A stretch of DNA of 64,000 bases from Cytophagaceae bacterium (GTDB lineage Bacteria; Bacteroidota; Bacteroidia; Cytophagales; Flexibacteraceae), in assembly GCA_027490155.1 (NCBI GenBank), contig JAIXYP010000069.1, forward strand, positions 124,001 through 188,000. The letters are read 5' to 3'. The translations under genes and the position numbers were made by a program. This document shows positions 18,216 to 41,582 of the stretch, in pieces. The notes beneath the pieces were generated by a model. It ran no database searches. It saw only the letters and a program-made list of their open reading frames with translations, and was not told the DNA's origin. Numbering within the stretch: the first letter of the stretch is position 1; each line of letters opens with the position of its first letter.

Positions 18216-18223
18216 TAGATTTG
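18216..18223 (+). promoter_or_regulatory. -7-like TAGATTTG element just before the first giant cargo gene
   Basis: TAGATTTG matches TAnnTTTG and ends 5 bases before ATG 18229. The paralogue at 23390 has TACCTTTG at exactly the same distance. A start site here would make the mRNA nearly leaderless unless a downstream ATG (18259, 18268 or 18277) is used. No -33 TTG is visible at normal spacing. Confidence 0.5.
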
Positions 18224-18228
18224 TAGCC

Positions 18229-21200
18229 ATGACACCATACTTTAGCACGCGGCAATTGATGCCATTTATGAAACCAATGTCCAGCCTACTTGGCCGTATT
18301 GGTTTCTTGATGCTCAGCCTTGCCTTTTTCTGGGCCACTGGTCAGGCGCAGGCACAGACAATAACAGGTTTCACACCGACCTCCGGCACAACTGGCACCA
18401 CGGTCACCATTACAGGTACAGGTTTCACTGGGGCTAGTACAGTTGCCTTCAACGGCATTGCAGGCGCCCTATTTGTCCAGGATGATTTTACAATCCTGAC
18501 CCAAGTGCCTTCTGGTGCCACCAAAGGCCTGATCTCGGTCACTGTAGGCGGCAACACGGTGTCTAGTGCTGATACTTTTTATGTAGGCCAATCCTTTCCA
18601 TCCATCACAGGCTTCACACCCGTCTCTGGTACAGTCGGTAGTAATGTCACGATCAATGGACAAAACCTCAACCTCATTGACTCCATCAGGTTTAACGGCA
18701 CAAGAGCGACTTATAACTTCCTGAATGCGACAAGCATCGTTGGCATTGTTCCAGTTGGTGCCACCACTGGCCTTATTGAGCTCTTTTACCAAGGTATCCG
18801 ATATACAAGCAGCTCTCCATATACTGTTGTCGCTGCTCCGCCTACTATCATCAGCTTTAGCCCAACTGCCGGACCTACTGGTACCACTGTATCTATCATC
18901 GGTACCAACTTTACAGGCATCACCCAGATCACGTTCAATAACGTGAATGCTCCGATCTTTACGGTCCATCGTCCAGACAGCCTCACAGTTGTCGTTCCGC
19001 CTTCTGCTACCACTGGACAGGTCAGGGTCACAACATCTGGCGGCACAAGCGGTTCACGTCAGCCCTTTCAGGTCCTTAATCCTACGGGGCCTACTATTAC
19101 CAACTTCAACCCGTTCAACGGACCAGTTGGTACAACGGTTACAATCACCGGGACCAACTTCAATGGTCTGACCACTGTGTTGTTTAACGGGACTGTCGCT
19201 TCGGTAACTAGCAGCACTAATACTCAAATCATCGTCAATGTACCGGTAGGCGCCACAACTGGCAATATTGCAGTCGTCACAACAAATGGCGTTGCAACCT
19301 CCAATTTCCCCTTCACTGTCACGACCACCGGTGCTGGTATCTGTTTTAACAACCCGAATACCAATAACATAAACCCAGTTGGCACCTGGACCTCAGTTAC
19401 GTTACAACCAGGAAATGCGTATGCGTTCACGTTCAATGCCCAGAACAATCGTACCTATAGCTTTAGCACCTGTGGTGCAACAGGCAACACGGTTATCCGG
19501 ATTTATGATCAGCGCAATACTCTCATTGTCAGCAACGATGACAATGGTCCTTACTGCCTTGGTAGTGCGGCCTCTATCGATTTCACACCAACGACACCTG
19601 GTCAGTACCGAGTGCTAGTTACTGAGTCTCCCTGTATAGCTTTAACGGGTACCGTTACGTTCCAGCACCGTGTTGGTGCTGTTACAACCACCCCTAGCCT
19701 TACGAATTTCTTGCCAACATCAGGCCCTGTTGGTACAGTAGTTTCACTTGTAGGTACCAACCTAACCCAGATCACCTCTGTTTTGCTAAATGGCCAGGCC
19801 TGCACTATCAGTAGCCAGACCAATACCCTGATTCTGATCACGGTGCCAGTTGGCGCCATCACAGGCACTATTCGCCTTAATTATAATGCTGGTTTCCTAA
19901 CCACAGCGCCTCAGGAGTTTACCGTAACGGCCCCAAGTGCTAGTTTTTGCTCTGCAACACCATTAAATCGTGGTACCATCACCCCAATCACAACCTATCA
20001 GACCGTCAGCGGGGCACAAGGTTCATCACCTTATTGGGACTTTGTTGCCACAGCAGGCACCACCTACACCTTCAGTACCTGCGGTTCGGTGTTCGACACC
20101 CAAATCAGGATCTATGATGCCACAAAAGCCCTCAAGGATAGTAATGACAATGACGGCCCAGTCTGCGTTGGCAATGCTGCTAGCCTAGAGTTTACGCCTA
20201 CAACCTCTGGCACCTATAGTCTTTTACTAACAGGGACCAACTGTACTGGTCTAGCCCTCGCGGCTAACTTGCGCTATCGCCTAGGTGGTGGCCTTAGCAT
20301 CAACTCTATAGCCCCAACCTCTGGTCCTGTCGGGATCAATGTTTTGGTCAAAGGAACTGGTTTCGTTGGTGTTACTGCGGTTCAGTTTGGCGGCGGGACA
20401 GTTAACGCAACATCCTACACCGTCACAACTGACTCAACTATTTCCGTTACAGTGCCCACGGGTGCAGTCACCGGAACCATCTGTGTCGTGGCAGGTACCA
20501 AATCTACATGCAGCCAACAACAATTCACGGTTATCGCGACCCCAACCTTCTGCGGACCGGCCAATATCACTTCTATCTACCCAGTCCTAACTGTCCGGAC
20601 CCTTCCGATCATTGCTGGTAGCCGCGAAGCCTATTTCTTTACCGGAGCCCTCAACACTACGTATGCCTTCAGTACGTGCGGCGTCGGAACCAATGATACT
20701 AAAATTAGGATCTATGATGCGAGTGGTGCAATCCTTGCCACCAATGATAACGACGGCCCGTATTGCACAGGCACAAAGGCAAGCATCAATTTTGCCCCAA
20801 CAATCGCTGGCGATTATTTCCTAATCGTTACAGATGCGGACTGTAATGTACTATCTGCCAACGGGGATCTGACCTACTATACCTTGCCAGTAGCAAGCGC
20901 CCCTATCATCACGGGCTTTAACCCTAACACAGGCCCAGTAGGTACTGTAGTCCGGATCCTCGGTCGTTATTTTACGAATGCGACAAATGTTAATTTCAAC
21001 GGTACTGCCGCTAGCGCCTACACTGTTATTTCGGATACTTTGATCTCGGCGACAGTTGGTACAGGCTCAACCACTGGCCGCATTAGTGTTGTTACGCCAT
21101 TTGGCTTAGGCCAGTCCACCTCCAACTTCACGGTCACGAACTGTACAAATGTCCGCATCGTCATCAATATGACCCCGCAAGGCGGCGACCAATTTAGGGT

Positions 21201-22998
21201 GTTTGGCGGCGGAGGACCTGGTGGAGGTACAACATATGTACTGGATGGTACAACTACTGTTGGCGCCACTGGCATCTTCACTGCAGCACCAGGCATCCAT
21301 ACCCTGAGGGCTACCAATGCGCAAGGTTGCTTTGCTGAGACTGCCTTCCGGAACTTTGGTGTCGTGACCTGTGGTCAACGCATTACTGGTGGTGGCACTG
21401 GGGCCGATACACTTACCTTCTACGAAGTCACCGCCCCTGCCTTGGGTGCAACATCATTGTTGTTGTTTGACCAGGGTGACGCGCCAGAACGTGGCCGTCT
21501 CTTTTACCAAGGTGCAACTGTTGCGACGGTCAATGCGTTTACCAATCCGAACAATTTGTTCTATAGCCCACGCAATGCTACCACGGGTACTGCAGTCATA
21601 GAGGTCAAAACCAGGGCTGGTTCTAGTTTTGGTGCTTGGCTCAACTGCCCAACCACTGCTGCCACGATCCAGACACTGACTGCTGGCAATCTAAATGCTT
21701 GCGGCAAACAATTGGTCCTAAGTACTTATCCTGCCCGCAGCACAAATACTGGTACTGTGATCTCGACTTTGCAAGCTGGCACAGGCCGACTGGTTCAGCT
21801 TAATATCCGGGCGCTGACCTTGGGCTTAAGTGACTCGATCATGATCTATGATGGTGCCACGGCCGCTGGTACTTTGCTTGCTAGGTTAGGTGGAGACTAC
21901 TCAACCGTAACCAACACCATCATTACCTCAACTGATACAGCCATGACGGTTGTCTATTCTGGCCTTGCTGCTGGGCGTGGTGGTTTTATATTCGACGTCA
22001 ACTGTATCCTCAATACAACTTCATCCATCGCGATGGGTACTCTCAGCAGTTCTTTGATTTGCCGCAACAGTACCATAACGATACCATTTGTACTTACAGG
22101 GCCTTTCGTTTCTCCAGATACTGTCAAGGTCGAGGTAAGCCCGACTGCCAACTTTAGCAACACCTTCGTTTTAGGCCAAGTCATCACCACCGTCCAAAAT
22201 GGTATCGTGACAGCTATCGTACCGGGCAATAGCCTACCAGGGATCTATTATGTGCGCCTTGCGAATGGCAATAGTCGTTCCAACCAGTCAAGCTTTACCG
22301 TTGTCACTTCTCCTGCCGTCCCTACAATCGCTGCTTCTGGGCCTACTGCGCTTTGCCAAGGCAACACCCTGACGCTCAGTGCCAATGCACCAGGGGTCTC
22401 TGGTTACATCTGGTCAACAGGTGCCACAACTAGTTCGATATCGGTAACAACTGCTGGTAATTATACCCTCCAGACGGTAGTAGGTAGCTGTACTAGTGCT
22501 GTCTCGGCCCCAACAATTGTCACTGTTAATCCGTCATCAGCCGTGAGCTTAGTGTTGCGCAACGATACGGTCTTTGCCATAGGCACTAGCCCAGGCGTTA
22601 CCTTCCAGTGGTCAGTTAACGGATTTGTGCAGGCTGCCATTACCACTCCATACATTGTTGCCCGTTTCGACGGTAACTATGCAGCAACTGTAACCCTCGG
22701 TACTTGTGTCACACCGTCTGCACCACTATTGGTAGTCGGCCTTGCCGATGGTATCAAAGCTGGTGACCTTAAACTAGTGCCGAACCCAGCCTCAGGCCAA
22801 GTTCGCCTCCAGTTGACCACTCCTATCACAAATGCTGAAGTCGTATTGGTCAATACCCTTGGCCAAACCGTCCGTACCTACAACATCAGTACCGACGAAA
22901 CGCAAGGAGCTGAGCTTGACCTATCTGGTATCAGCGCTGGTACCTATATGGTCCATGTAGTGGGCACCTCAGTGCGTAAGGCCTTGGTCGTGAGGTAG
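18229..22998 (+). CDS. Giant T9SS-secreted protein with TIG, PPC-like, CUB-like and Ig-like modules (paralogue 1)
   Basis: A 1589-residue exported protein. A signal peptide covers residues 1-43 (ends ATGQAQAQ). There are seven TIG/IPT-type modules, each opening with P-T-x-G-P-x-G-T-x-V and continuing G-x-N/G-F. Three PPC-like modules (FSTCG, then I-R-I-Y-D, then D-N-D-G-P) alternate with the later TIG modules. A CUB-like segment (ACGKQL then DSIMIYDG), one 75-residue Ig-like module (CQGNTL then YIWSTGATTSS) and a type A sorting domain (LKLVPNPASGQVRLQL to KALVVR, about the last 80 residues) follow. T9SS cargo of this type is exported by Sec, moved across the outer membrane by T9SS and anchored or released after CTD cleavage. 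Adhesion is a reasonable guess; there is no catalytic motif. It is followed by its own terminator and a longer paralogue. ATGs at 18259, 18268 and 18277 are alternative starts. Confidence 0.9.
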   Translation: MTPYFSTRQLMPFMKPMSSLLGRIGFLMLSLAFFWATGQAQAQTITGFTPTSGTTGTTVTITGTGFTGASTVAFNGIAGALFVQDDFTILTQVPSGATKGLISVTVGGNTVSSADTFYVGQSFPSITGFTPVSGTVGSNVTINGQNLNLIDSIRFNGTRATYNFLNATSIVGIVPVGATTGLIELFYQGIRYTSSSPYTVVAAPPTIISFSPTAGPTGTTVSIIGTNFTGITQITFNNVNAPIFTVHRPDSLTVVVPPSATTGQVRVTTSGGTSGSRQPFQVLNPTGPTITNFNPFNGPVGTTVTITGTNFNGLTTVLFNGTVASVTSSTNTQIIVNVPVGATTGNIAVVTTNGVATSNFPFTVTTTGAGICFNNPNTNNINPVGTWTSVTLQPGNAYAFTFNAQNNRTYSFSTCGATGNTVIRIYDQRNTLIVSNDDNGPYCLGSAASIDFTPTTPGQYRVLVTESPCIALTGTVTFQHRVGAVTTTPSLTNFLPTSGPVGTVVSLVGTNLTQITSVLLNGQACTISSQTNTLILITVPVGAITGTIRLNYNAGFLTTAPQEFTVTAPSASFCSATPLNRGTITPITTYQTVSGAQGSSPYWDFVATAGTTYTFSTCGSVFDTQIRIYDATKALKDSNDNDGPVCVGNAASLEFTPTTSGTYSLLLTGTNCTGLALAANLRYRLGGGLSINSIAPTSGPVGINVLVKGTGFVGVTAVQFGGGTVNATSYTVTTDSTISVTVPTGAVTGTICVVAGTKSTCSQQQFTVIATPTFCGPANITSIYPVLTVRTLPIIAGSREAYFFTGALNTTYAFSTCGVGTNDTKIRIYDASGAILATNDNDGPYCTGTKASINFAPTIAGDYFLIVTDADCNVLSANGDLTYYTLPVASAPIITGFNPNTGPVGTVVRILGRYFTNATNVNFNGTAASAYTVISDTLISATVGTGSTTGRISVVTPFGLGQSTSNFTVTNCTNVRIVINMTPQGGDQFRVFGGGGPGGGTTYVLDGTTTVGATGIFTAAPGIHTLRATNAQGCFAETAFRNFGVVTCGQRITGGGTGADTLTFYEVTAPALGATSLLLFDQGDAPERGRLFYQGATVATVNAFTNPNNLFYSPRNATTGTAVIEVKTRAGSSFGAWLNCPTTAATIQTLTAGNLNACGKQLVLSTYPARSTNTGTVISTLQAGTGRLVQLNIRALTLGLSDSIMIYDGATAAGTLLARLGGDYSTVTNTIITSTDTAMTVVYSGLAAGRGGFIFDVNCILNTTSSIAMGTLSSSLICRNSTITIPFVLTGPFVSPDTVKVEVSPTANFSNTFVLGQVITTVQNGIVTAIVPGNSLPGIYYVRLANGNSRSNQSSFTVVTSPAVPTIAASGPTALCQGNTLTLSANAPGVSGYIWSTGATTSSISVTTAGNYTLQTVVGSCTSAVSAPTIVTVNPSSAVSLVLRNDTVFAIGTSPGVTFQWSVNGFVQAAITTPYIVARFDGNYAATVTLGTCVTPSAPLLVVGLADGIKAGDLKLVPNPASGQVRLQLTTPITNAEVVLVNTLGQTVRTYNISTDETQGAELDLSGISAGTYMVHVVGTSVRKALVVR

Positions 22999-23035
22999 GG
23001 CTTCCCTTTTTAACAAATAGATTCACTTCAATACA

Positions 23036-23073
23036 CAAAGTCCTGACTTGCTAACTACAGGTCAGGACTTTTG
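23036..23073 (+). terminator. Terminator after giant cargo gene 1
   Basis: AAAGTCCTGAC pairs with GTCAGGACTTT across a 13-base loop and runs into TTTTG. It is homologous in sequence to the hairpin after paralogue 2 (29835-29870). Confidence 0.85.
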
Positions 23074-23376
23074 TCATTAGAGGTAGCTAAATCATTACCC
23101 TAATCAATCGGCGATTTATCATACTAACCCACTAAATCAGAAGCTTAATTATTGCTGCCAAAGGTGGTGCACCCCGATCAGCAATAGTTTCGAGGCCCTA
23201 AAGTGGATATTGGTTTCACAACCAATAAAATGTAATAGTTGGGCACAGTTGTTGCCTAGCATGACAAGCTATATGTTAAGGAGTCATTAAGTATGTTGAC
23301 TTTCGCAACCATTATCTTTTGCAATAGCACTAATGTCCGCATGTTATTAACTAAATCAGTCGGATGACATTTTATC

Positions 23377-23384
23377 TACCTTTG
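23377..23384 (+). promoter_or_regulatory. -7-like TACCTTTG element just before giant cargo gene 2
   Basis: TACCTTTG ends 5 bases before ATG 23390, the same spacing as in paralogue 1. ATG 23393 follows immediately, and the next in-frame Met is inside the signal peptide core. A start site 4-6 bases downstream of the element would give a leaderless or nearly leaderless mRNA. Confidence 0.5.
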
Positions 23385-23389
23385 TATCC

Positions 23390-26300
23390 ATGATGCCAAT
23401 TCTAAACCCGCAAATTTTTTTAAGACTCCAAAGGCCATTTTATGCCCATTTAAGGCACTTTGGTTTGATGGTTTTGTCACTGGTGCTTTTCTGTACTAGT
23501 AGCCTAGTACAGGCCCAAACAATCACAAGTTTCGCACCCACTTCTGGCTCTACTGGCACAACAGTTACTATCAGGGGCACAGGGTTCACAGGCGCAAGTA
23601 CTGTGGCTTTTAACGGGATAACGGGTGCCCTATTTGTGCAGGATAATACCACCATACTAACCCAGGTGCCTTCTGGTGCAACAACGGGTTTGATCTCGGT
23701 CACGGTTGGTGGCAATACGGTCTTTAGCGCCACTCCGTTCAATGTGGCCCAATCTTTCCCAGTGATCACGAGTTTCACGCCAGCGACAGGGACTCCTGGT
23801 AGCAATGTGACCATCACAGGCCAGAACCTCAACCTGATCGACTCCCTTAGGTTCAATGGCAAAAGGGCTACCTACAATTTCCTTAGTGTGACCAGCATAG
23901 TTGGTGTTGTACCTGTTGGTGCCACTACTGGGCCCATCGAGCTGTTTTATCAAGGGGTTCAGTATGCTAGTAGCGGTGTTTTTACGGTTCCCACACCTCC
24001 GCCAACCATTATCTTTATTAGTCCAACTAGCGGACCTCCTGGCACTGTTGTTAGTGTAAAAGGAAGCAACTTTTTTGGTGTCACCCAAGTTACGCTCAAC
24101 AATGCAGTTGTTCCTAACTATACAGTCCATCGCCCAGATAGTATCACATTTATTGTACCGCCAACTGCTACTAGTGGCCTTGTTCGTGTTACGACTTCCG
24201 GCGGATCAGTTTCCAGTAGTTCGATTTTTCAGGTCACAAATCCGTTGGCCCCAACGATTACGAGTTTTACGCCGACCAGCGGTTTTGTGGGTACAATCGT
24301 CACCGTAAGGGGCAGCAACTTTATTGGTACTACGCAGGTTAGGATTAACGCTACAATTATTGCCAACTATACGGTTCATACTCAGGATAGCATGACGTTG
24401 ACTATTCCACCTGCGGCCTCCACAGGATTTATAAGGATTACAACTCCAAATGGTACGGCAACAAGTGCAATTGCTTTTCAGGTTTTGGTGCCAGGTCGGC
24501 CCACAATTACAAGTTTTACGCCTAGTATTGGCCAAATCGGCACTTTGGTAACGGTTAGAGGCAGTAACTTTTTAGGTCTAACCCAAGTCATGCTCAACAC
24601 CACAATAGTAACAACCTACACAGCACATCGCCAGGATAGCCTTACGTTTATCGTACCACCAACCGCTACCACAGGCGTAATTCAGATTACAAACGCAGGC
24701 GGTACTGCCACAAGCACAGTGCCCTTTCAGGTCTTTAATACAACAGGAAGGCCCACGATCACGAATTTTGCGCCATTTAATGGCCCAGTCGGTACCACAG
24801 TCACGATTAATGGAAGCAATTTTTCGGGTTTGAGTTCCGTCTTGTTTAATGGTACACCTGCCATTGTAACCAGCAGCACCAATACCCAGATAATTGTCAA
24901 TGTCCCCGTAGGTGCCACAACAGGGACCATTGTGGTTGTTACATCTGCTGGTATTGCCACCTCAACTCGGCTATTTGTGGTATCGAGTGTTGCAGCTGGT
25001 TTTTGTAGTAATTTCCCTGGCGTTAGTAACATCACGCCTTCGCTTACCTGGAGTGCATTTACCTTGCTAAGAGGCTCAGGGTATAACTTTGCCTTGAATG
25101 CACTAGCTGATCGTACTTACAGCTTTTCAACGTGCGGTTCTGGGTCAAATACCATTATCAGGATCTATGACCCAAATACCAACCTAATTGCTAGCAATGA
25201 CGATGACGGGCCGTATTGTATTGGCAATACTGCTTCTATTGACTTTACCCCTCCAGTAAGTGGGAACTACTGGGTTTATATTACTGATAGTCCATGTTTC
25301 TTGCTATCCAGACCTGGTACACTGCAGTATAAGTACAGCCAAGCCTCAGCTGTGCCAACACTTTCAAGCTTTGCGCCTACCTCAGGTCCGGTAGGCACGT
25401 CAGTTGCTTTATTTGGCACCAACTTAACCCAAATCACCTCAGCTGAGCTCAATGGTCAGACATGTGCTATCTTGAGCCAGACCGATAACTTGATTTACAT
25501 TGTTGTACCTGCAGGTGCTACTACTGGTGCTATTCGTCTCAATTATAGTGGCGGCACACTTACCACGGCTCCGCAAGACTTTATTGTCACGGCCCCAAGT
25601 GTTAGTTTTTGCACGGTAGTACCATTATCTCGTGGTACCATTACCCCAGCCTTTTCTTACCAAACAGTAAATGGCTTACAAGGATCTTCGCCTCATTGGA
25701 GTTTTGTTGCGACTGCTGGCACGACCTATACCTTTAGCACCTGCGGATCTAGCTTTGATACCCAGATCAGTATTTATGATACGCTAAGGGCTCTTAAAGA
25801 TGGCAATGATAATAATGGCCCTATTTGTGTCGGTAACGCTGCCAGCCTTGAGTTTACACCTACAATTAGTGGTACCTATAACGTGCTCCTGACGGGGGCC
25901 AACTGTACAGGCCTTCCTGGTTCAGTCAATCTGCGCTACAGGATAGGGGCTAATTTTGGGGTCGTTTCTTTTGTCCCACCCTCAGGGCCTATTGGGATAA
26001 ATGTCTCTCTTCGAGGTCGTGGATTTACAGGGCTTACCGCCGTGCAATTTGGCGGAGGTAGCGTGAACGCGCCAAACTTCAGTGTTACATCAGATAGTAC
26101 ACTGAATGTCAGGGTACCAGCTGGCGCCGTCAGTGGCTCAATTTGTATTGTGGCTGGTACCAAAACCGCTTGTAGTTCCAGTCCGTTTACGTTAACTGCA
26201 ATCCCGACATTCTGCGGTGTGGCAAATACTGGGCTGCTAAACCCCATCCTTAGTCAGCGATCAGTACCTTTAGCAAGTGGTAGCCGTCATGCGTTTCATT

Positions 26301-29300
26301 TTACAGGCACTGCTAATGCCACTTATGCCTTCAGTACCTGTGGCGTCGGCACAAGTGATACCAAGATCAGAATTTATGATGCCGCTGGTGCTGTTGTTGC
26401 CACCAATGACAACGACGGACCTTTTTGCGTAGGTAACAAGGCCAGCATTAACTTCGTACCAACCCTTTCGGGTGATTATTTTGTGCTTGTCACTGATAAT
26501 GACTGCGATGTCTTGGCAGATAATGGTGAGCTCAAGTACTCATCCTTGCCTGTCCCTAGTACGCCGATTATCACCAGCTTTAGCCCTACCTTCGGTACTG
26601 CAGGCACCATAGTCCGGATCCTAGGCCGCTATTTTACCAATGCCAGTGATGTTAGCTTTAACACCACAAGTGCCCGTGCCTTTACGATCATTTCTGACAC
26701 CTTGATCTCTGCCATCGTTGCGACTGGCACAACCACTGGTCGAGTCAGTGTGACAACGCCACTTGGCAGGGTCCAATCCACCTTCAACTTTACGGTTAAC
26801 AACTGTGCAAGCACCCGTGTCCTTTTCACGATGGCACCGCTTGGTAACAACCAGTTCCGTGTTCGCTCAACTCCCGTAGGTATAAACTTGACCTATCTGC
26901 TAGATGGCGAAATAACTGTTGATGCGACTGGTGTTTTTACCGCAGCACCTGGCACCCACATCATTAGGGCCATCAACGCCCAAGGTTGTTTTGCAGAGAG
27001 TGCATTCCGGAACTACGGTGTTGTGGCTTGCGGTCAGAGGCTCACTGGTGGAGGCACTGGTGCCGATACCTTGTCCTTCTATGAGACAACTGTTCCTAAT
27101 CAAGGTGAGACGATGTTGGTTTTGTTTGACCAAGGTGTGGTGCCATTGCGCAGCCGAATCTATTACCAAGGGGCTAGTTTTGCATTCGCTTCTCCTTCGG
27201 TCTCCAATCCGCGGAACTTATTCTACAGCCCAAACAATGCTACTAGCGGTCCTGCGGTTATCGAAGTTAGATCTAGCCTAGGTACCAGTTTTGGTGCTTG
27301 GCTCAACTGCCCTACAACTTCTGCTACTGCCCAGGCCATGATCAATGGCACCGCCAATGCTTGTGGTAAGCAACTGGTGCACAGTACCTATCCAGCCCAA
27401 AATACAACTAACGGCACCGTAAGCTCCACCATCCGGGCGGGCGCTGGTCGGATAGTCCAGCTCAATATCCGTTCCTTCGCTATTGGGGGCAGTGATACAC
27501 TCTTGATCTATGATGGGCCTTCTACGACTAGTCCTATTATGACAAAGCTGTTTGGTAGTTTTTCAACCATTAACAAGACCCACCTATCCACTGACACTGC
27601 GTTGACCATTGTTGCCAAAGCCAATTCGTTTTCAATGGGCGGCTTCATTGTCGATGTCAATTGCGTCGAAAACGCTCCACCTTCTATTGCCATGGGATCG
27701 CTAAGCAGTTCGGCAGTTTGTACGGGTGGTTCGTTTACTGTTCCATTTTCACTGATCGGGCCTTTCGTCTATCCTGACACATTGCAGGTCGAGATTAGTC
27801 AATCGGCAACCTTCGATACCCTCCTTATGATTGGTCAGGCCATTACCCGTATCAATAATGGTGCGGTGACAGCTACCTTGCCACCAGCCGCCCAGCCAGG
27901 TGCCTACTTTGTACGCATTGTTGGTGGTGTAATGAGGTCTAATCAATCCACTTTAAGTGTTGGTCCTACGCCTTCCTTGCCGACCATCAATGCCAATGGG
28001 CAGACCGCAGTTTGCCAAGGGGATACCCTTATACTTATTGCGAATGCGCCAGGGGTATCTGGTTACATTTGGTCCACCGGGGCCACAACGAGCTCCATTA
28101 AGGTGAGCGAAGCAGGTAGTTATACCCTCCAGACAGTTATTGGCACCTGTACTAGTGCAGTTTCAGCACCAACTATCGTGACCATCAACCCGACTCCTGC
28201 GCTGCCGACCATCAACGCAAATGGGCCAACTGTTTTTTGCCAAGGTGATACCCTTATACTCAGTGCCAATGCGCTAGGTGCTTCGGGAATTATTTGGTCA
28301 ACTGGTGCTACTACAAGCGCAATCAAGGTAAGTGTGGCAGGTAGTTATTCCCTCAGGACTATTGTTGGTACTTGTACTAGTGCTGTTTCGGTGCCAACAG
28401 TCGTAACCATCAATCCGACTCCTGCAATGCCAACCATTGACACAAATGGGACGACTACATTTTGCCAAGGTGATACCCTTATACTCACCGCCAATGCGCC
28501 TGGTGTTTCCGGTTACATTTGGTCCACTGGTGCTAAGACTAGTTCCATCAAGGTTAGCGCGGCGGGTAGTTATACCCTCAGGACGGTTATCGGAACTTGC
28601 ACTAGTGCGGTTTCATCTCCAACAATTGTAAGCATCAACCCGACTCCTGCGGCGCCGGCCATTAACGCAAATGGACCAACCACCTTTTGTCAAGGCGATA
28701 CCCTTATACTGAGTGCCAATGCACCTGGTGCTTCGGGGTATATCTGGTCTACAGGGGCAACTACTAGTTCCATCAAGGTTAGCGCGTCGGGCAGTTACAC
28801 CCTCAGGACTGTTGTGGGCACTTGCACTAGTGCCGTTTCGGCACCAACAATTGTAATCATCAAACCGACACCTGCTTTGCCGACGATCAATGCTAATGGA
28901 TCAACCGCCCTTTGCCAAGGGGATACCCTTATACTGAGTGCCAATGCACCCGGTGCTTCGGGGTATATCTGGTCCACTGGTGGGACGAATAGCTCCATCA
29001 AGGTTAGCGCGGCGGGTAGTTACACCCTCAGAGTTATTAACGGTAGCTGTACTAGTGCTGTTTCGGCACCAACAGTCGTGACCATCAATCCGACACCTGC
29101 TTTGCCTACTATCAATGCCAATGGATCAACCGCCCTTTGCCAAGGGGATACCCTTATTCTGAGTGCCATTGCACCTGGTGCTTCGGGGTATATCTGGTCC
29201 ACTGGTAGGACGACTAGCTCAATCAAGGTTAGCGCGGCGGGCAGTTACACCCTCAGGGTTATTAACGGTAGCTGTACTAGTGCTGTTTCGGCACCAACAG

Positions 29301-29782
29301 TCGTAACTCTTAATCCATCCTCAGCAGTGACCCTAGTGTTGCGCAACGATACCGTCTTCGCAGTCGGCACCAGCCCAGGTGTGACCTATCAATGGAGCTT
29401 CAATGGCTCTCCTCAGGTTGGCATCACGACGCCTTACATTGTCGCTCGTGCTGGTGGTAACTATGCAGCCACTGTTACCCTTGGTACTTGTGTTACTCCA
29501 TCTGCACCACTGTTGGTGGTCGGACTTGCGGATGGTATCAAAGCTGGAGACCTGAAACTAGTGCCGAATCCTGCCATTGGCCAAGTTCGTCTCCAGCTGA
29601 CTACGCCAATGAACAATGCCGAAGTCAGATTGCTTAATACCCTTGGCCAAATGGTCAGGACCTACAACATCAGCACAGACGAAAACCAAGCCGCCGAGTT
29701 GGACCTGTCGGGCGTCAGCGTAGGCACCTATATGGTCCATGTCATGGGCACCTCGGTTCGCAAGGCCTTGGTCGTGAGATAG
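23390..29782 (+). CDS. Giant T9SS-secreted protein with expanded TIG and Ig-like arrays (paralogue 2)
   Basis: A 2130-residue paralogue of the preceding gene with the same order of parts. Signal peptide 1-43 (ends SLVQAQ, at the same residue as in paralogue 1), nine TIG/IPT modules, three PPC-like modules, the FSTCG/IYD/DNDGP blocks, CUB-like segment, an Ig-like array and a type A sorting domain (LKLVPNPAIGQVRLQL to KALVVR). Two features are expanded: three consecutive near-identical TIG modules replace the single third TIG of paralogue 1, and six 75-residue Ig-like modules replace one. Each Ig-like module has two cysteines (CQGD and the C of CTSAV) that could form a disulfide. It is predicted to be a cell-surface or released protein exported by T9SS; adhesion or matrix binding is inference. 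Later modules share runs of identical DNA. Confidence 0.9.
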   Translation: MMPILNPQIFLRLQRPFYAHLRHFGLMVLSLVLFCTSSLVQAQTITSFAPTSGSTGTTVTIRGTGFTGASTVAFNGITGALFVQDNTTILTQVPSGATTGLISVTVGGNTVFSATPFNVAQSFPVITSFTPATGTPGSNVTITGQNLNLIDSLRFNGKRATYNFLSVTSIVGVVPVGATTGPIELFYQGVQYASSGVFTVPTPPPTIIFISPTSGPPGTVVSVKGSNFFGVTQVTLNNAVVPNYTVHRPDSITFIVPPTATSGLVRVTTSGGSVSSSSIFQVTNPLAPTITSFTPTSGFVGTIVTVRGSNFIGTTQVRINATIIANYTVHTQDSMTLTIPPAASTGFIRITTPNGTATSAIAFQVLVPGRPTITSFTPSIGQIGTLVTVRGSNFLGLTQVMLNTTIVTTYTAHRQDSLTFIVPPTATTGVIQITNAGGTATSTVPFQVFNTTGRPTITNFAPFNGPVGTTVTINGSNFSGLSSVLFNGTPAIVTSSTNTQIIVNVPVGATTGTIVVVTSAGIATSTRLFVVSSVAAGFCSNFPGVSNITPSLTWSAFTLLRGSGYNFALNALADRTYSFSTCGSGSNTIIRIYDPNTNLIASNDDDGPYCIGNTASIDFTPPVSGNYWVYITDSPCFLLSRPGTLQYKYSQASAVPTLSSFAPTSGPVGTSVALFGTNLTQITSAELNGQTCAILSQTDNLIYIVVPAGATTGAIRLNYSGGTLTTAPQDFIVTAPSVSFCTVVPLSRGTITPAFSYQTVNGLQGSSPHWSFVATAGTTYTFSTCGSSFDTQISIYDTLRALKDGNDNNGPICVGNAASLEFTPTISGTYNVLLTGANCTGLPGSVNLRYRIGANFGVVSFVPPSGPIGINVSLRGRGFTGLTAVQFGGGSVNAPNFSVTSDSTLNVRVPAGAVSGSICIVAGTKTACSSSPFTLTAIPTFCGVANTGLLNPILSQRSVPLASGSRHAFHFTGTANATYAFSTCGVGTSDTKIRIYDAAGAVVATNDNDGPFCVGNKASINFVPTLSGDYFVLVTDNDCDVLADNGELKYSSLPVPSTPIITSFSPTFGTAGTIVRILGRYFTNASDVSFNTTSARAFTIISDTLISAIVATGTTTGRVSVTTPLGRVQSTFNFTVNNCASTRVLFTMAPLGNNQFRVRSTPVGINLTYLLDGEITVDATGVFTAAPGTHIIRAINAQGCFAESAFRNYGVVACGQRLTGGGTGADTLSFYETTVPNQGETMLVLFDQGVVPLRSRIYYQGASFAFASPSVSNPRNLFYSPNNATSGPAVIEVRSSLGTSFGAWLNCPTTSATAQAMINGTANACGKQLVHSTYPAQNTTNGTVSSTIRAGAGRIVQLNIRSFAIGGSDTLLIYDGPSTTSPIMTKLFGSFSTINKTHLSTDTALTIVAKANSFSMGGFIVDVNCVENAPPSIAMGSLSSSAVCTGGSFTVPFSLIGPFVYPDTLQVEISQSATFDTLLMIGQAITRINNGAVTATLPPAAQPGAYFVRIVGGVMRSNQSTLSVGPTPSLPTINANGQTAVCQGDTLILIANAPGVSGYIWSTGATTSSIKVSEAGSYTLQTVIGTCTSAVSAPTIVTINPTPALPTINANGPTVFCQGDTLILSANALGASGIIWSTGATTSAIKVSVAGSYSLRTIVGTCTSAVSVPTVVTINPTPAMPTIDTNGTTTFCQGDTLILTANAPGVSGYIWSTGAKTSSIKVSAAGSYTLRTVIGTCTSAVSSPTIVSINPTPAAPAINANGPTTFCQGDTLILSANAPGASGYIWSTGATTSSIKVSASGSYTLRTVVGTCTSAVSAPTIVIIKPTPALPTINANGSTALCQGDTLILSANAPGASGYIWSTGGTNSSIKVSAAGSYTLRVINGSCTSAVSAPTVVTINPTPALPTINANGSTALCQGDTLILSAIAPGASGYIWSTGRTTSSIKVSAAGSYTLRVINGSCTSAVSAPTVVTLNPSSAVTLVLRNDTVFAVGTSPGVTYQWSFNGSPQVGITTPYIVARAGGNYAATVTLGTCVTPSAPLLVVGLADGIKAGDLKLVPNPAIGQVRLQLTTPMNNAEVRLLNTLGQMVRTYNISTDENQAAELDLSGVSVGTYMVHVMGTSVRKALVVR
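24002..24751 (+). repeat. Three tandem TIG-module repeats, about 249 bp each
   Basis: Units start at 24002, 24251 and 24500 (periods 249 and 249; the last unit is 252 bp). Each encodes one 83- or 84-residue TIG module beginning PTI-(I/T)-(F/S) and containing GSNF, then Y-T-x-H-x-x-D-S, then a Thr/Gly strand. Paralogue 1 has one 83-residue module at this place. Confidence 0.85.
27968..29317 (+). repeat. Six tandem 225-bp Ig-like repeats with no length variation
   Basis: Units start at 27968, 28193, 28418, 28643, 28868 and 29093, each exactly 225 bp (75 residues), ending at 29317. Each encodes the pattern TPALPTINANG, CQGDTLIL, IWSTG, SIKVS, AGSYTL, CTSAVSAPT, INP. Units 5 and 6 are nearly identical at DNA level; units 1-3 have diverged more. 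Paralogue 1 has one such unit. Confidence 0.95.
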
Positions 29783-29834: not shown

Positions 29835-29870
29835 AAAGTCCCGACTTGCACATTGCAGGTCGGGACTTTT
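29835..29870. terminator. Terminator after giant cargo gene 2 (bidirectional capacity)
   Basis: AAAGTCCCGAC pairs with GTCGGGACTTT with a 13-base loop and a T run. It is homologous to the hairpin at 23036-23073. It lies between convergent genes and could also stop pyruvate carboxylase transcription. Confidence 0.87.
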
Positions 29871-30005
29871 GGTGTTGATTAGATTCTGGGATACGGTTAG
29901 GTCTTCCAAAGTTAAGTAATTTCCAGTTAGCAAAGTGCTTCAGGGCTTCATTATGGAGGTTTGCCTTGTTTGGCTAAAGGATATACAAACTACTGCGTAT
30001 CAGGA

Positions 30006-34832: not shown

Positions 34833-37800
34833 ATGAAAAAGTACTCTAATCCATTAGCTTGGCGCAGCAATAGTATCCTGTGTGCAGCATCATCAAAGTC
34901 GCTCATCCTGAGCTTGATCCTTGTCCTAACCGTAGGTTTCTTGTCAAGCCTCAGTGCACAAACAACCTATACATGGGTCGGTGGCGGTACAGGGCTCTGG
35001 ACCCAAGCCAACAACTGGTCTCCAGTTGGTGTGCCAGATGCAACCAACGAAATTGCGCGGTTTGATGGCAGCACCACAACGGTAAACATCAAGGCTAACA
35101 TCAACGTTTGGGGCCTATATCTGGTCAACAATGCCAATGTCACCCTTCAGTCAGACTCGACAGCTAGCCGCATCTTTACTGTTAATGACCAGGCCTCAGC
35201 CACTGATCTCCAGATCCCAGCAGGTAGTAGCCTAACCATCAGAGGCCGCAACTTCGGCAACAACGATACTGACTTACAGTTTCGGTTGGTCTCTAATACA
35301 ACCACGGCTTCTATCTCAGGCACCTTATTGGTCGGGACTGATGACGCAGGTTCGATGACCCCGACAGGATCCACAAACTTGACGATTGGAATCTGGGCTT
35401 TTAATAGCGGGTCGGTCTATGACCATAACCGCGATGGTGGATCCCTCACCTACGGAACGCTTTGCACATTTGCAGCTGGTAGTACCTTCCGGATTACTGG
35501 CATTGTCAACACGGCACCGACTGGCCTTTTCAACTTAGGTACCATTACCCTTGGCACCCTATTTATTGACTGCCCTAACAACAAAACAACTTTTGCTGTT
35601 CAGAATTCATCACCAACGGTAGTTAATATCCTGAATGACCTCGAGATCAGGAACACCGGCAGCCGCACATCTAACTATTTTGGCCTCAACAGCACTAATA
35701 GTACAGTGACTTGGAATGTGTCGGGCAATATTAACGTTGGCACCAGCAGCATCAGGTCAATCCTGAGTTTGCGTTTTGGTACTTCTGGTGGCGTGACTAA
35801 CCTCAATGTTGGTGGCAACATCAATGTCGATGCCAACGGTACGATCATCCAGCACGTAGGCACCACAACGCTCAACATGGGTATGGCTGGTGGCCTCGCC
35901 AATGCCGCCATTCAGGGCACTGGCACCGTGAACCTTTCAAATGGTTCCAACATCTGCCACGTCAACATCAACAACACACCTGTCGGATATAACCTGACCC
36001 TTGCCCGTAGCATTACAGTTTCTGGGAACCTAGTGGTCAACACAACAGGTTCAGTTCTTTTCAATACCGCGGCTGCACAGACCCTCCGTGTCAATGGTGT
36101 GCTTTCTGGTACAGGAACCATCGATATGTCTGGAGGAGCTCGGGCACACATCCTCCAGCTCTATGGTGCTACCAATGCGATTGGTACCCTGGTTCCTGGT
36201 AGTGGCTCAGTGCGGTACGAAAATGCCAACCAAGAGGTGATAGGCAACAAAACCTATTTTAACCTCGAGATCAGTGGCAATAACACTGCAACCAAAACTA
36301 CAGCCCCTGCCAATTCAGACATTACGGTCACGGGCCGGATAAGGCTGCTGAACGGAACGTTGACATGCGGTACTGGCAAAGTGGTAATGGGCAACGGTAG
36401 CACAGTAGAGCGGGCGGAACGTGGTGCTTTTACTGGCCCAGAATTTACAGTAGATAACCCTGGTGTAAGCCGATATAGCCTTTCATATACCACCTTGTCA
36501 ACGGTCCGTAGTATCACTGTTGGCCCTGAGTGGACATCTGCCCTCAGCACAATTAACGGGGTCTCTGTAGGTGTTGGTACCAATAACTACCTGAACCTAA
36601 ATACAGCCAAAACTTATTATGGAACGCTAACCCTATCATCTGGTTTCATCGCCCTCAATGCTTTTAACCTTACTTCGGCTGATGGTGCCAATTTCAGCGG
36701 TGGATCAGCAACGGCACACATCGTAACCAATGGTATTGGTAGTTTCCTAAAAGAAGGTAATGCCAACGCTGACTTTGTAACCACTTACCCAATTGGTAGC
36801 GGCGCATCTTACGCACCTATCCAGATCACGACCATGAATAGGGTCGGCACTGGTTTCATTAGCTTGCGGACAACTGCCCACCGTCATCTAACGCTTCAGA
36901 AGACTGATGCCCTGGCACGGTACTGGACTTTAGGCTCTGGTGGCGGTCTGGCGGTCACTAACTGGGCTGGGCGCATGAATAACGTGGCTGGCGAAGCAAC
37001 TGTCAGTACCAATGCCGTGGGTTATGTCGCAACCCACACTGGCACAAGTTGGGTTGTCAACCCAAACAGCGCTACCTACAGTGCCAACCAGCTCAATATC
37101 CCTACCAACACAACCCAATTTATGGGTACATGGTCTGCCGGAAAGTCTGGTGCCGCGGGTAGCTTTGACCTAACTGGGTTTGAGATTGCCACTGTCGATG
37201 GTCCTTGGAGCACCCCAGGTACCTGGCAGGACGGGTCTGTCCCTACTGCAAGTTCAAAAGTGATTATTGCCTCTAACGTGACCTTGGACCCCGCCACCAT
37301 ATCAATGGATCAAATCTCAATTGTGGCTGGTGGATCCTTGACGGCGAGTACCAACAATATAACAACAGCTAATGATTTCCTGATTGAAGGATCGTTTACT
37401 GACAACAACGCAACAGGCACGATCACGATTGGTGGGGATCTTATTTTTGCAGGCACAGTCTCAACAGGTACGCAAGAGCTCAACATCCTCAAAAATCTTT
37501 ATCTTGATCAGGATGGGTTGTCAATTGCAGGTACTGTCAACTTCAGAGGCACGACAAGCAATATTTTTGGCACAGGTAGTGCAACCCTTACCAATATCAA
37601 CTTACTGAACGGCAGCATCGTGAACGTAATGACCAGCGGTGTTGGCTCTGGTCTAACCATGAACGGAACCATCGGTAACATCACAGGTAATACCACCGGT
37701 CAGTTCCGGATGGGTACCAATGGCATCCTGAGTATCAACTCCACTACCGTAAACGGAATGACAGGTGGTGACCTTAATGACCTGACCAATTTTGATTTTT

Positions 37801-40800
37801 CGGCAGCTGGGAGCACTGTGCGTTACTTCAGGTCTGGTGACCAAAACATGGTCTCGACGGTTTACGATAGGCTTGAGGTCACCAATGGCGGTAATAAAAA
37901 TTTTACCAATGCGCCCAACGCCGCTGCAACCCAAGTGCTTACTAGCCTCATTACCCTCAATACCATCACTGTCCGGGCAACAGCCACTGGTTGCGATAGT
38001 TTGATCTTAGGAAGCAGAACTTTGGCCAACACCGCTAACATCAACAACGCCGCTGGTACAGTGTCGTTAGTCAACACAAAAAGGATGCATTTGGTTGTCC
38101 GCTCTAGCGGCAACTTCATGACTGGTAACGGTAGCTTCACCACTGGTCATATCTGGATCAGAACAACTGGTGCGGTACCACTTGCCTCAACCCTTAGCAT
38201 CAGCTACACACTTCAGGGTGATTTCCGCCATATCAGTAACAACAACTTTACGCAGAGCACCAACAATACAACAACGGCGAACCCTGGCGGTGGATTCTTG
38301 ATCTCGGGTACTAGCACTGGTGTGACTACCTTCGGTAACCTCCGGATCAGGTCATCTAATACTGTTTATACACTCGAGCGTGACATCACTGTCACTGGCA
38401 ACAGTGGCGGTAGTAACAATAACGCTGGGGATTGTGCTTTTGGGGTCGAAAACACCCCCAGCACCGGCTTTATCTTCAATGGCCGGACAGTGAACTTTGC
38501 TGGCCGTGATGCGAGTTCTGTCGTGATCAGCAACAATGCCAACTCGTTCAACCAATCAGCCGTTGGCAGTTTGTTCCGCATTGTGCAGCCCACCAACAAC
38601 TGGACCTGCGACATCCGTGGCACGTTGACCTCTATGCCTTTGGCCAAAGTGCAGGTCCTGACAGGCAATACCCGATTTATCCTGCCAACGACATTGGATG
38701 GTCCTTTCCTAGCTACAGATACTGTTGAGTTTAATGGTGCCCATACCATAACACATGCACCAAGCCCAGCAAATACATTTAACTATCAAGGTTCGGGCGG
38801 ACTCATCACCTGGTCTGGTACTGTCGTCGTTAACAGCGGTGCAAGGCTCAATTCGGATCTTAATGTTACGTTCAACGGTACAACCCTCACAAACAACAGC
38901 ACAGGTTTGGCTGGCATCTCGATCGATTTGCAGGGTCGCAACTTTATGATGGACCGCACAGGAAACGAAGGTGTAGGTAACCAAACCATCGTGAGTGCTG
39001 CTAGCAACGGTGATATGGTTTTCAACAACTTCACCATTGACGGGATCGGCACCCGGACGTTACCAGCCTCCGAGATTATTGTCCTGAACCGTGCCTTGTT
39101 TGGCCCAGGCCCAGCACCAGTTGTACCTACAGGCACAACAGGGGTCCTCCGTGTTGGTAGTGAACTAGTAGCCAATACAGCATACCTCGAGACATCAGGT
39201 GGCCAGCTAAACTTCAGCAGTGGTGCCAACTTCCTGACAGTTGTTTTACATGGCAGCGACAATCCGGTCCGGAACTATGAGTATGATCCTGCCAATATTG
39301 TTTTTGGGAAATTGGAAGTCAACACCACTGGTGCTACGCCTCCAACATTGGCCTTGTCCAGCAACTTTTCCGTAGCGCGTGAGTTTGCCCAGACCAGTGC
39401 CAATGATTTTTTGCCTGCCGCCAACCAAGTAATCAGAATGGGTGTCTTGGGGCAATCAGCTACCATTACAGGTGTTAGTGCTGGTCAAACAACCTTCGGT
39501 GTCTTGCAGGCAGGTGATGCCGTCGCCAATAGCAATATCAGCCTTGGTCGCCCAGTTACAGTTCGGGACTCGATCTTACTCAATTTCTCAGCCTCAGGTG
39601 GCTATCTAGCGATTAACACCAAAAAACTGACTTTGGCGGGCGTTTATCGTGCTATCGCCAACCCCATCCTTCGTGGTGATGCAAATGGTGCCCCTTCTAC
39701 GTCTGCCCTTGAGCTCATTGGTAGTGCCAACGTGATTGGTGCTTTAACTTTTGACCCAGCCAACAACAACCTCGACGAGCTAGTCTATAACAAAACCGGC
39801 CAAAATTATGCACTAGGTGCCCCAATCGGCATTGTCGGTAGTGTCAATAGTTCCTTAAGGTTGATGGCCGGTACCCTTAACAACGGTACACATAATATTA
39901 GTTTTGATGCGGCCAACAGCAAAGTCTTGATGGAAGGTGGTACAACTTCGAATTCGCCTGACTACGCAGCTGTCAATAGCATTGACTTTGAGATCAAAAC
40001 GCCGATCAACCTATCTACCACACCTCTACCATCGGTGGCAAGTGGTGCCCTGCGTAAACTCTCGATAGCAGCAGGAGTTGGTAATATTGTTAGCCTAGGT
40101 GGTGTCAGCCGTGCTGTTAAAGGGGATTTGGTGCTAACCAGCGGTACACTTCGTGTTGATAATGCAGCCCTGACTTTGGGTGGTGTAATTGACAGGACAG
40201 GTGGTGGTAAACTAGAAACCAGTACAACCTCAACCTTAGTTCTGAACGGCACTACTAGCCAAAATCTACCAACTGACCTCTTCGTCGACGCCACCCCGAC
40301 TGTCGGCACCCTCCGGATCAGTAATACACACCCAGATGGTGTAACGATGTCTAACCAAGGGATGGTCGTCAGTACAAGCCTGAACTTTACCTCAAGTCCG
40401 GCTGCCACAACTATCCAGACGCCCCTAGACGAAACCAAGCTATTGACCCTAGCGCCAACTGCTACCCTAAGTGGTGAGGCCCCTGGTCGCTATGTTGTCG
40501 GTGCGCTAGCCGCACAGGATGTGATCCAGGCAAACCAGTCCAACAACTTTTCGGGTGTGGGTGTCACCATTGAGGGTGTTGACGCTGCTGAGGCAGCTGT
40601 AATGAACTCTATCGGTGGCTCGCTGCAAGTAATCCGTCGTTCGGGTCGTGCAGGCCATATCAGCAACGGAAATACAGGTTTTGAGGATAACAATAGCATC
40701 ATGCGTAGGTGGTCCTTTAGCGCAGTTGGAGCCCTGCCAGGGTTTGTCAACATCAAGTTCAGCTGGGTGTCGAACGACGATAATAGTTGTGGAGCTAGCT

Positions 40801-41582
40801 GCAACCTCAATAAGATGGTTGTTTATCGCAAAGCGGCTGCCGAAACCCAATGGACCCGTGTCCGCTCTGCTGGCCCTAATGCCCGTTGGCAAAATGCTGA
40901 CCTTGGTAACGGGATGCGCCAGACAGGTTGTTTTTCAGATCATTTTACGGATTATACCGTTGGCTATGGCGACTCGCCACTACCAGTGACTTGGGCATCA
41001 GTTGGTGCCAACCGCAAACCAGGCTATAGCCAAGCTGCAGGTCGCCAACAAGATGGCAAAGTCAATGTTGTTTGGGCCACTGCTACAGAGAAAAACAATA
41101 GCCACTTCGTAGTAGAGCGTAGCGAGGACAATTTGACCTTCGTCACGATCGGTAGTGTGCAGGCCGCTGGCAACACCACTCAGCTTTCTCGCTATGAGTT
41201 TCTGGATGGCAGCGCCCCAACCTCTGCGATCTATTACAGGATCAAACAAGTGGATCTGGACGGTACCGCTAGCTACTCGCCATTAGCAGTTGTTACGGCC
41301 GTTGGCAGCACAAAAGCACCCCTGACCATCTATCCGAACCCAAGCACGACTGCTGACCTAGTTAATGTCAACGGATTGGAGCTTGACGAGGCCATAAATG
41401 CACAACTTTTTGACGCTAATGGTCGCCAAATAGGTAGCTTTAGTGGGGTTTTGGCCAATGGAGCTGGTCTGCCTGCTGAGTTACGCCCAACCACTGCAGG
41501 TATTTATCAGCTTGTTATCACACCAGCTGTGCCAACTGCCGAAACTACTGCGCCGCAATCAATCCGGTGGGTGGTACGATAA
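34833..41582 (+). CDS. Giant secreted repeat-rich protein, probable T9SS cargo
   Basis: A 2249-residue exported protein. The signal peptide spans residues 1-43 (ends FLSSLSAQ). The body is rich in Thr, Asn, Gly and Ser with short alternating strands (for example LNVGGNINVDANGTI), as in beta-helix or beta-solenoid surface proteins. A W-x-x-G-x-G-x-W-x-x-x-x-N-W-S motif near residue 55 and a related DGPWSTPGTWQDGSVP motif near 790 mark two starts of similar modules. Near the C-terminus is a Bacteroidota LPVTW segment followed by a fibronectin-like stretch (VVWATATEKNNSHFVVERS). The last 90 residues (LTIYPNPS, LFDANGRQIGSF, AGIYQLVI, RWVVR) form a type A sorting domain. No catalytic motif was recognised. 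It differs from the TIG/Ig pair in body and CTD. Function unknown; surface structure or adhesion is inference. Confidence 0.87.
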   Translation: MKKYSNPLAWRSNSILCAASSKSLILSLILVLTVGFLSSLSAQTTYTWVGGGTGLWTQANNWSPVGVPDATNEIARFDGSTTTVNIKANINVWGLYLVNNANVTLQSDSTASRIFTVNDQASATDLQIPAGSSLTIRGRNFGNNDTDLQFRLVSNTTTASISGTLLVGTDDAGSMTPTGSTNLTIGIWAFNSGSVYDHNRDGGSLTYGTLCTFAAGSTFRITGIVNTAPTGLFNLGTITLGTLFIDCPNNKTTFAVQNSSPTVVNILNDLEIRNTGSRTSNYFGLNSTNSTVTWNVSGNINVGTSSIRSILSLRFGTSGGVTNLNVGGNINVDANGTIIQHVGTTTLNMGMAGGLANAAIQGTGTVNLSNGSNICHVNINNTPVGYNLTLARSITVSGNLVVNTTGSVLFNTAAAQTLRVNGVLSGTGTIDMSGGARAHILQLYGATNAIGTLVPGSGSVRYENANQEVIGNKTYFNLEISGNNTATKTTAPANSDITVTGRIRLLNGTLTCGTGKVVMGNGSTVERAERGAFTGPEFTVDNPGVSRYSLSYTTLSTVRSITVGPEWTSALSTINGVSVGVGTNNYLNLNTAKTYYGTLTLSSGFIALNAFNLTSADGANFSGGSATAHIVTNGIGSFLKEGNANADFVTTYPIGSGASYAPIQITTMNRVGTGFISLRTTAHRHLTLQKTDALARYWTLGSGGGLAVTNWAGRMNNVAGEATVSTNAVGYVATHTGTSWVVNPNSATYSANQLNIPTNTTQFMGTWSAGKSGAAGSFDLTGFEIATVDGPWSTPGTWQDGSVPTASSKVIIASNVTLDPATISMDQISIVAGGSLTASTNNITTANDFLIEGSFTDNNATGTITIGGDLIFAGTVSTGTQELNILKNLYLDQDGLSIAGTVNFRGTTSNIFGTGSATLTNINLLNGSIVNVMTSGVGSGLTMNGTIGNITGNTTGQFRMGTNGILSINSTTVNGMTGGDLNDLTNFDFSAAGSTVRYFRSGDQNMVSTVYDRLEVTNGGNKNFTNAPNAAATQVLTSLITLNTITVRATATGCDSLILGSRTLANTANINNAAGTVSLVNTKRMHLVVRSSGNFMTGNGSFTTGHIWIRTTGAVPLASTLSISYTLQGDFRHISNNNFTQSTNNTTTANPGGGFLISGTSTGVTTFGNLRIRSSNTVYTLERDITVTGNSGGSNNNAGDCAFGVENTPSTGFIFNGRTVNFAGRDASSVVISNNANSFNQSAVGSLFRIVQPTNNWTCDIRGTLTSMPLAKVQVLTGNTRFILPTTLDGPFLATDTVEFNGAHTITHAPSPANTFNYQGSGGLITWSGTVVVNSGARLNSDLNVTFNGTTLTNNSTGLAGISIDLQGRNFMMDRTGNEGVGNQTIVSAASNGDMVFNNFTIDGIGTRTLPASEIIVLNRALFGPGPAPVVPTGTTGVLRVGSELVANTAYLETSGGQLNFSSGANFLTVVLHGSDNPVRNYEYDPANIVFGKLEVNTTGATPPTLALSSNFSVAREFAQTSANDFLPAANQVIRMGVLGQSATITGVSAGQTTFGVLQAGDAVANSNISLGRPVTVRDSILLNFSASGGYLAINTKKLTLAGVYRAIANPILRGDANGAPSTSALELIGSANVIGALTFDPANNNLDELVYNKTGQNYALGAPIGIVGSVNSSLRLMAGTLNNGTHNISFDAANSKVLMEGGTTSNSPDYAAVNSIDFEIKTPINLSTTPLPSVASGALRKLSIAAGVGNIVSLGGVSRAVKGDLVLTSGTLRVDNAALTLGGVIDRTGGGKLETSTTSTLVLNGTTSQNLPTDLFVDATPTVGTLRISNTHPDGVTMSNQGMVVSTSLNFTSSPAATTIQTPLDETKLLTLAPTATLSGEAPGRYVVGALAAQDVIQANQSNNFSGVGVTIEGVDAAEAAVMNSIGGSLQVIRRSGRAGHISNGNTGFEDNNSIMRRWSFSAVGALPGFVNIKFSWVSNDDNSCGASCNLNKMVVYRKAAAETQWTRVRSAGPNARWQNADLGNGMRQTGCFSDHFTDYTVGYGDSPLPVTWASVGANRKPGYSQAAGRQQDGKVNVVWATATEKNNSHFVVERSEDNLTFVTIGSVQAAGNTTQLSRYEFLDGSAPTSAIYYRIKQVDLDGTASYSPLAVVTAVGSTKAPLTIYPNPSTTADLVNVNGLELDEAINAQLFDANGRQIGSFSGVLANGAGLPAELRPTTAGIYQLVITPAVPTAETTAPQSIRWVVR

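Follow-up and report, generated by a model that had tools for sequence, protein, structure and literature searches.

Tandem-repeat proteins of bacterial surfaces are usually described as length-variable, and two neighbouring giant genes of a Cytophagaceae bacterium raise the question of whether recombination among repeated modules still sets the length of their products. The genes lie in a stretch of 64,000 nucleotides (assembly GCA_027490155.1, contig JAIXYP010000069.1, positions 124,001 to 188,000; hereafter the window) and encode P1 and P2, which are, judged by their sequences, ordinary modular surface proteins exported as type A cargo of the type IX secretion system (T9SS). A preliminary description of this DNA had read them as adhesins whose reach is adjusted by gain and loss of modules. 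Our comparisons, within the pair and with a sister species, demonstrate that P1 and P2 go back to an old tandem duplication, that they differ in length by whole modules on a conserved frame, and that the TIG and immunoglobulin-like (Ig-like) module counts of both have not changed since the two species split. Over the same interval the Ig-like units of P2 lost their positional orthology while their number stayed the same, which amounts to turnover of units rather than change of length.

Two genes that differ by whole modules

Both open reading frames (ORFs) encode exactly the 1589 and 2130 residues first reported, and the common order of parts claimed for them was found in both proteins: TIG, PPC-like, TIG, CUB-like, Ig-like and a T9SS C-terminal sorting domain (CTD). 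Positions are those of the window.

18229..22998, + strand: P1, 1589-aa modular T9SS type A surface protein by its Pfam and NCBIfam matches; exact ORF
21691..22008 (approximate limits), + strand: CUB-like domain of P1, from fold matches to CUB/spermadhesin structures with a low-confidence model
22321..22545, + strand: single 75-aa Ig-like unit of P1
22483..22995, + strand: C-terminal 171 residues of P1, 87% identical to those of P2
22780..22989, + strand: T9SS type A sorting domain of P1 (TIGR04183, PF18962)
23390..29782, + strand: P2, 2130-aa modular T9SS type A surface protein by its Pfam and NCBIfam matches; exact ORF
24200..24697, + strand: two extra TIG modules of P2 (aa 271-436, 2 x 83), from the global alignment
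27353..27667 (approximate), + strand: CUB-like domain of P2, by alignment to P1
27980..29329, + strand: Ig-like array of P2 with six units of 225 bp (75 aa), of which P1 lacks five (alignment gap at 28142-29266)
29267..29779, + strand: C-terminal 171 residues of P2, apparently homogenised with P1
29564..29773, + strand: T9SS type A sorting domain of P2 (TIGR04183, PF18962)

Aligned globally, the two proteins match from end to end (1587 aligned residues, 66% identical) and are interrupted by only two large gaps, at P2 271-436 (166 residues, 2 x 83, TIG) and P2 1585-1959 (375 residues, 5 x 75, Ig-like). Apart from four one-residue indels that sum to zero, all differences in length are thus whole modules, and 166 + 375 gives the entire difference of 541 residues. 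The preliminary description had reached the same sum of TIG and Ig-like modules, and its proposal of a tandem duplication followed by whole-module divergence agrees with this collinear alignment; its alternative count of 542, for which it had invoked one compensating residue change, was a counting slip. Within the E-value limit Pfam recognises seven TIG stretches in P1 and nine in P2, again a difference of two, along with the PPC and C-terminal sorting domains. Tandem Repeats Finder detects a 225-bp repeat in P2, at 27977-29307 and in 5.9 copies, and this unit occurs once in P1.

That the pair would "differ only in module copy number" is too strong. The large gaps are indeed modular, but the copies are old and diverged, with a synonymous divergence (dS) of at least 1.4, often saturated, over nearly the whole length outside the tail. 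The C-terminal 171 residues are 87% identical (dS 0.85), against 57-67% in the remainder, and in a four-sequence site count the orthologue-type sites, which outnumber others by about 20:1 in the body, drop to 4/17 in P1 1426-1500. This combination suggests homogenisation of the shared tail between P1 and P2, for the most part earlier than the species split.

Module counts in the sister species

The comparison species is one congener, a Cytophagaceae metagenome-assembled genome (MAG; CANHWS). Its genus accounts for two of the 11 family genomes searched, and the core region of the pair (P1 aa 971-1358) had no match in the other nine, that is, in no other genus, which sets P1 and P2 apart from other T9SS type A cargo. 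The congener carries the tandem pair in the same order and between the same neighbours, with threonine synthase and a phosphate transporter upstream and pyruvate carboxylase downstream. Its P2 orthologue (Q2) has 2130 residues and aligns with P2 without a gap at 85% identity; its P1 orthologue is split between two contigs, whose ends coincide over 266 bp apart from 2 mismatches, and joining them implies a protein of 1589 residues. Since the module counts of the congener pair are identical to ours, the module difference between P1 and P2 predates the species split. The two extra TIG modules of P2 are orthologous module by module in the congener (87-95%), and TIG modules in general, which serve as an internal control, show identities of 0.87-0.95 at the same position and 0.30-0.59 off the diagonal. 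Between species, dS is about 0.5 in the body of P2 and 0.4-1.9 in P1; the identity of the P2 orthologues is about 90% along the protein but 64-80% in the Ig-like array and part of the tail.

Whole modules have been gained or lost between these species elsewhere in the family, in a third paralog, situated where contig C21 ends (L042 6923-13237). It is collinear with its congener counterpart (L041, reverse strand) at 81-86%, and the congener copy contains exactly one extra in-frame PPC+TIG bimodule of 202 residues; in both species the gene runs off a contig end. Because of this bimodule we conclude that gain and loss of whole modules between species does happen in the protein family, and that P1 and P2 were stable over the same interval. 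The idea that modules come and go therefore stands for the family, but recombination that adjusts the length of this particular pair is not supported by the identical counts in the congener, the single comparison available and an outcome that the preliminary description had itself listed against its proposal. Another supposed length variant, C40 compared with C174, was rejected: the two are 32-74% identical along their length with scattered indels and are probably paralogous.

Turnover of units within the Ig-like array

The same-position Ig-like units of P2 and Q2 are no closer (nucleotide identity 0.709) than expected from random pairing (mean 0.710), and units within P2 are more alike (0.783). 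A tree pairing the units by position was rejected (delta lnL 101.6; approximately unbiased (AU) test, p = 1.7e-5), as were partial pairings of units 1-2 and of units 1-4, while a species-grouped tree was accepted; Q2 units 1-5 and P2 units 1-6 group by species. The single Ig-like unit of P1 is an ordinary orthologue pair between the species (91% aa), and in C56/C61, Ig-like unit proteins with interspersed domains, the position of units has been kept. Mean dS between units is 0.9-1.0 within arrays and 1.5-1.7 between species, at the same or different positions; as the latter value of about 1.5 is the sum of the split (~0.5) and the within-array age (~1.0), it matches the expectation for an array in steady turnover. 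Repeats of the P2 array share 72-90% of their nucleotides, most of them 72-83% with exact matches of 14-30 bp. The extreme is formed by units 5 and 6, at 90% nucleotide identity with the longest exact match (47 bp) and a dS of 0.31, a value that places this event after the species split.

Elevated diversifying selection on the array, acting without recombination, might be held responsible for the nonsynonymous divergence between P2 and Q2 (dN), which is ~0.18 in the array and ~0.05 in the body. However, dS is raised as well (1.5-1.7 vs ~0.5), and selection alone would not render same-position units as distant as any other pair. We regard this explanation as extremely improbable, and as the sole cause of the Ig-like divergence it is ruled out by the tree topology test together with dS.

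A second possibility is that one species acquired its P2 array and tail as a single import, the donor being a diverged relative or paralog, such that the low identity marks the import. Indeed, the low identity is contiguous, from P2 residue ~1515 to 2040 with non-unit tail sequence included, and divergence is greatest in Q2 unit 6 and the Q2 tail. No closer donor was found, however, among 150 Ig units of two genomes (best 0.44-0.60, compared with 0.71 for P2/Q2), the turnover of P2 units 5 and 6 postdates the split, and the grouping of Q2 units 1-5 and P2 units 1-6 fits turnover from within. Replacement of the segment is in our opinion doubtful.

The preliminary description would make P1 and P2 Periscope-like adhesins, in which frequent recombination within populations alters the number of Ig-like and TIG modules and so tunes the reach of distal domains. 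Periscope proteins are already a known kind (PMC8201768), the modules of the pair are in-frame, head-to-tail direct repeats, and both the recent event in units 5 and 6 and the bimodule of the third paralog would suit such a history. Yet both genes have equal counts in the two species, in spite of the turnover of units, and extreme length variation goes with the highest repeat identity (PMC8201768), a level that most P2 units do not approach. Frequent length change of this kind is therefore unlikely for P1 and P2.

We are left with internal turnover at a constant count, and several points weigh against taking it too far. The count comparison rests on one congener, a MAG, and not on a strain-level panel, NG86 estimates of dS are noisy on 75 codons, and the P2/Q2 tail just outside the array also differs above average, a pattern to which replacement of more than the array, by sequence of a diverged donor, could contribute. 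In addition, the equality of counts after turnover could be due to chance, with a probability of ~0.1 if each lineage is assumed to have had 7.5 events and every event is a step of +1 or -1; we therefore favour, without proof, gene conversion or selection on length. As a tentative extension, well short of an even chance, the P2 array may undergo length-locked concerted evolution, in which units convert each other and erase orthology while selection holds six units and 2130 residues; if true, this would make it the opposite of a length-variable Periscope protein.

In the same genome, C51 (L044 3584-9268) encodes a 1895-aa protein with 12 Ig-like units that are 83-97% identical and is a better candidate for real copy-number change; for this 12-unit array (C51/C277/C328) the congener assembly breaks inside the repeats, so that the counts are not comparable. 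C26 (L060 2431-17862) encodes a T9SS protein of 5144 aa with at least 35 Ig-like units, a module related to that of grappling hook protein A (GhpA).

Expression, export and relatives of the pair

The signals that flank both genes are listed below.

18216..18223, + strand: -7 promoter-like element of P1, TAGATTTG, 5 bases before ATG
23037..23072, + strand: terminator-like hairpin after P1, AAAGTCCTGAC...GTCAGGACTTT, -21.9 kcal/mol, conserved in the congener
23377..23384, + strand: -7 promoter-like element of P2, TACCTTTG, 5 bases before ATG
29835..29872, + strand: terminator-like hairpin after P2, AAAGTCCCGAC...GTCGGGACTTT, -26.6 kcal/mol, identical in the congener

Both the TAnnTTTG element described 5 bases before ATG and the shared terminator were recovered as first reported, the former exactly and the latter as two hairpins that fold well. 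The pattern TANNTTTG-N5-ATG has 4 matches in the window, against 0.76 expected, and TAnnTTTG-N5-ATG is conserved at 18216-18231 and 23377-23392 of the window, at L039 2986-3001 and L040 8466-8481 of the congener and in its third paralog (L041). By blastn, P1 and P2 have no similarity upstream of the element, so the duplicated unit spans roughly promoter core to terminator. Simple scans for sigma-70 promoters and terminators missed these signals, the promoter being of a different type and the terminator stems lying beyond the loop and stem settings. These TAnnTTTG elements probably represent the promoter itself. The -7 element of Flavobacterium johnsoniae extends from T-12 to G-5 (PMC6847099); applying this numbering to the N5-ATG spacing, we predict that transcription starts about 1 nt before ATG and that mRNAs of the pair, and of the whole family, are nearly leaderless, unlike most mRNAs of F. 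johnsoniae.

Near residue 43, AQA-Q (P1) or VQA-Q (P2) follows a basic and then a hydrophobic stretch, a candidate signal peptide as judged by eye. At the other end of the proteins, the type A CTDs score above cut-off in P1 (TIGR04183, 29.8 bits, cut-off 23; PF18962, 46.8 bits, cut-off 27) and in P2 (36.3 and 51.3 bits, same cut-offs). With their signal-peptide-like start, tandem beta-sandwich modules and CTD, both resemble known T9SS type A cargo with multi-domain repeats (Por_Secre_tail, TIGR04183/PF18962). The genome also encodes the machinery, including SprA (2362.6 bits, cut-off 200) and the PorU sortase (1165.8 bits, cut-off 420), and has at least 150 stretches matching T9SS CTDs. A third giant ORF of the window (34833-41582, 2249 aa) scores marginally for a G8 domain and weakly, at 27.8 bits, for a T9SS type A CTD; at the corresponding place in the congener a homologous-looking ORF runs off the contig.

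The 75-residue unit was modelled from 51 alignment rows with an Ig-like fold (predicted local distance difference test score, pLDDT, 93). Its best matches in the PDB by Foldseek are the Ig-like modules of GhpA from Aureispira sp. CCB-QB1 (TMq 0.71-0.74, 30-31% identity), to which it is homologous in sequence as well as fold (profile E = 2e-24; phmmer with P2, E = 2.5e-117 over the repeats, a value inflated by repeat copies). GhpA-type hooks are secreted by the T9SS (PMC11205867). GhpA, however, is a heptameric, Ig-like-dominated protein of 5898 aa, in contrast to P1 and P2 with one and six units and additional TIG, PPC-like and CUB-like parts; it is the module alone that is shared, and we do not claim a hook function.

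The region between the last TIG module and the Ig-like units resembles CUB/spermadhesin structures in fold (1sfp, TMt 0.75; 2wno, 0.67), albeit in a poor model: the AlphaFold prediction for the 619-residue C-terminal half, from 4 sequences, has a pLDDT of 46.5, and only its local CUB match was used, with caution. TIG stretches match chains 7k44_A (E 7.9e-5) and 5e7h_A (E 0.0013) of the Bacteroidetes surface glycan-binding proteins SGBP-B and BACOVA_02650, which, unlike P1 and P2, are lipoproteins belonging to glycan-uptake systems; next to the pair, no SusC/D genes were recognised. With Periscope proteins (SasG, Rib, Sgo_0707, CdrA), P1 and P2 share tandem folded surface domains and whole-repeat length differences between homologues, and the CUB-like and TIG parts are candidates for distal ligand-binding domains of that type. 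They differ in their T9SS anchoring, as opposed to a cell-wall motif, in their equal counts in sister species and in their less similar repeats: strain-variable Periscope proteins have 'highly identical' repeats (PMC8201768), whereas identity in the P2 array is high only between units 5 and 6. Nothing close was found in the literature on TIG plus T9SS repeats or on concerted evolution in such proteins. We infer secretion, surface location, a stalk function and a binding role for P1 and P2, which are probably adhesive.

Elsewhere in the window, positions 14-3958 encode a helicase-like protein of 1314 aa with relatives among anti-phage candidates (PADLOC PDC-S37, 445 bits; Hhe), with 490 bits to NCBIfam ProA, under its cut-off of 1500.

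Taken as a whole, we consider the following history of the pair quite probable. One monocistronic unit of promoter core, gene and terminator would have been duplicated in tandem to give P1 and P2, and before the species split one copy would have gained, or the other lost, two TIG and five Ig-like modules, in whole multiples owing to exon-like repeat boundaries that recombine in frame. After the split neither gene would have changed in length in either lineage, while within the P2 array the six Ig-like units continually overwrote one another, through gene conversion or balanced duplication and loss, and so came to group by species rather than by position. The proteins would be exported by the T9SS and kept at the surface, or released, by their type A CTD, with the Ig-like array most likely a stalk beside the surface-anchoring end and the TIG, PPC-like and CUB-like parts facing outward to ligands. 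The pair thus separates change of copy number, seen between the paralogs and in the bimodule of the third paralog, from turnover of units at constant count, seen in the Ig-like array between species, and it allows us to ask whether stalk length in T9SS surface proteins drifts or is selected.

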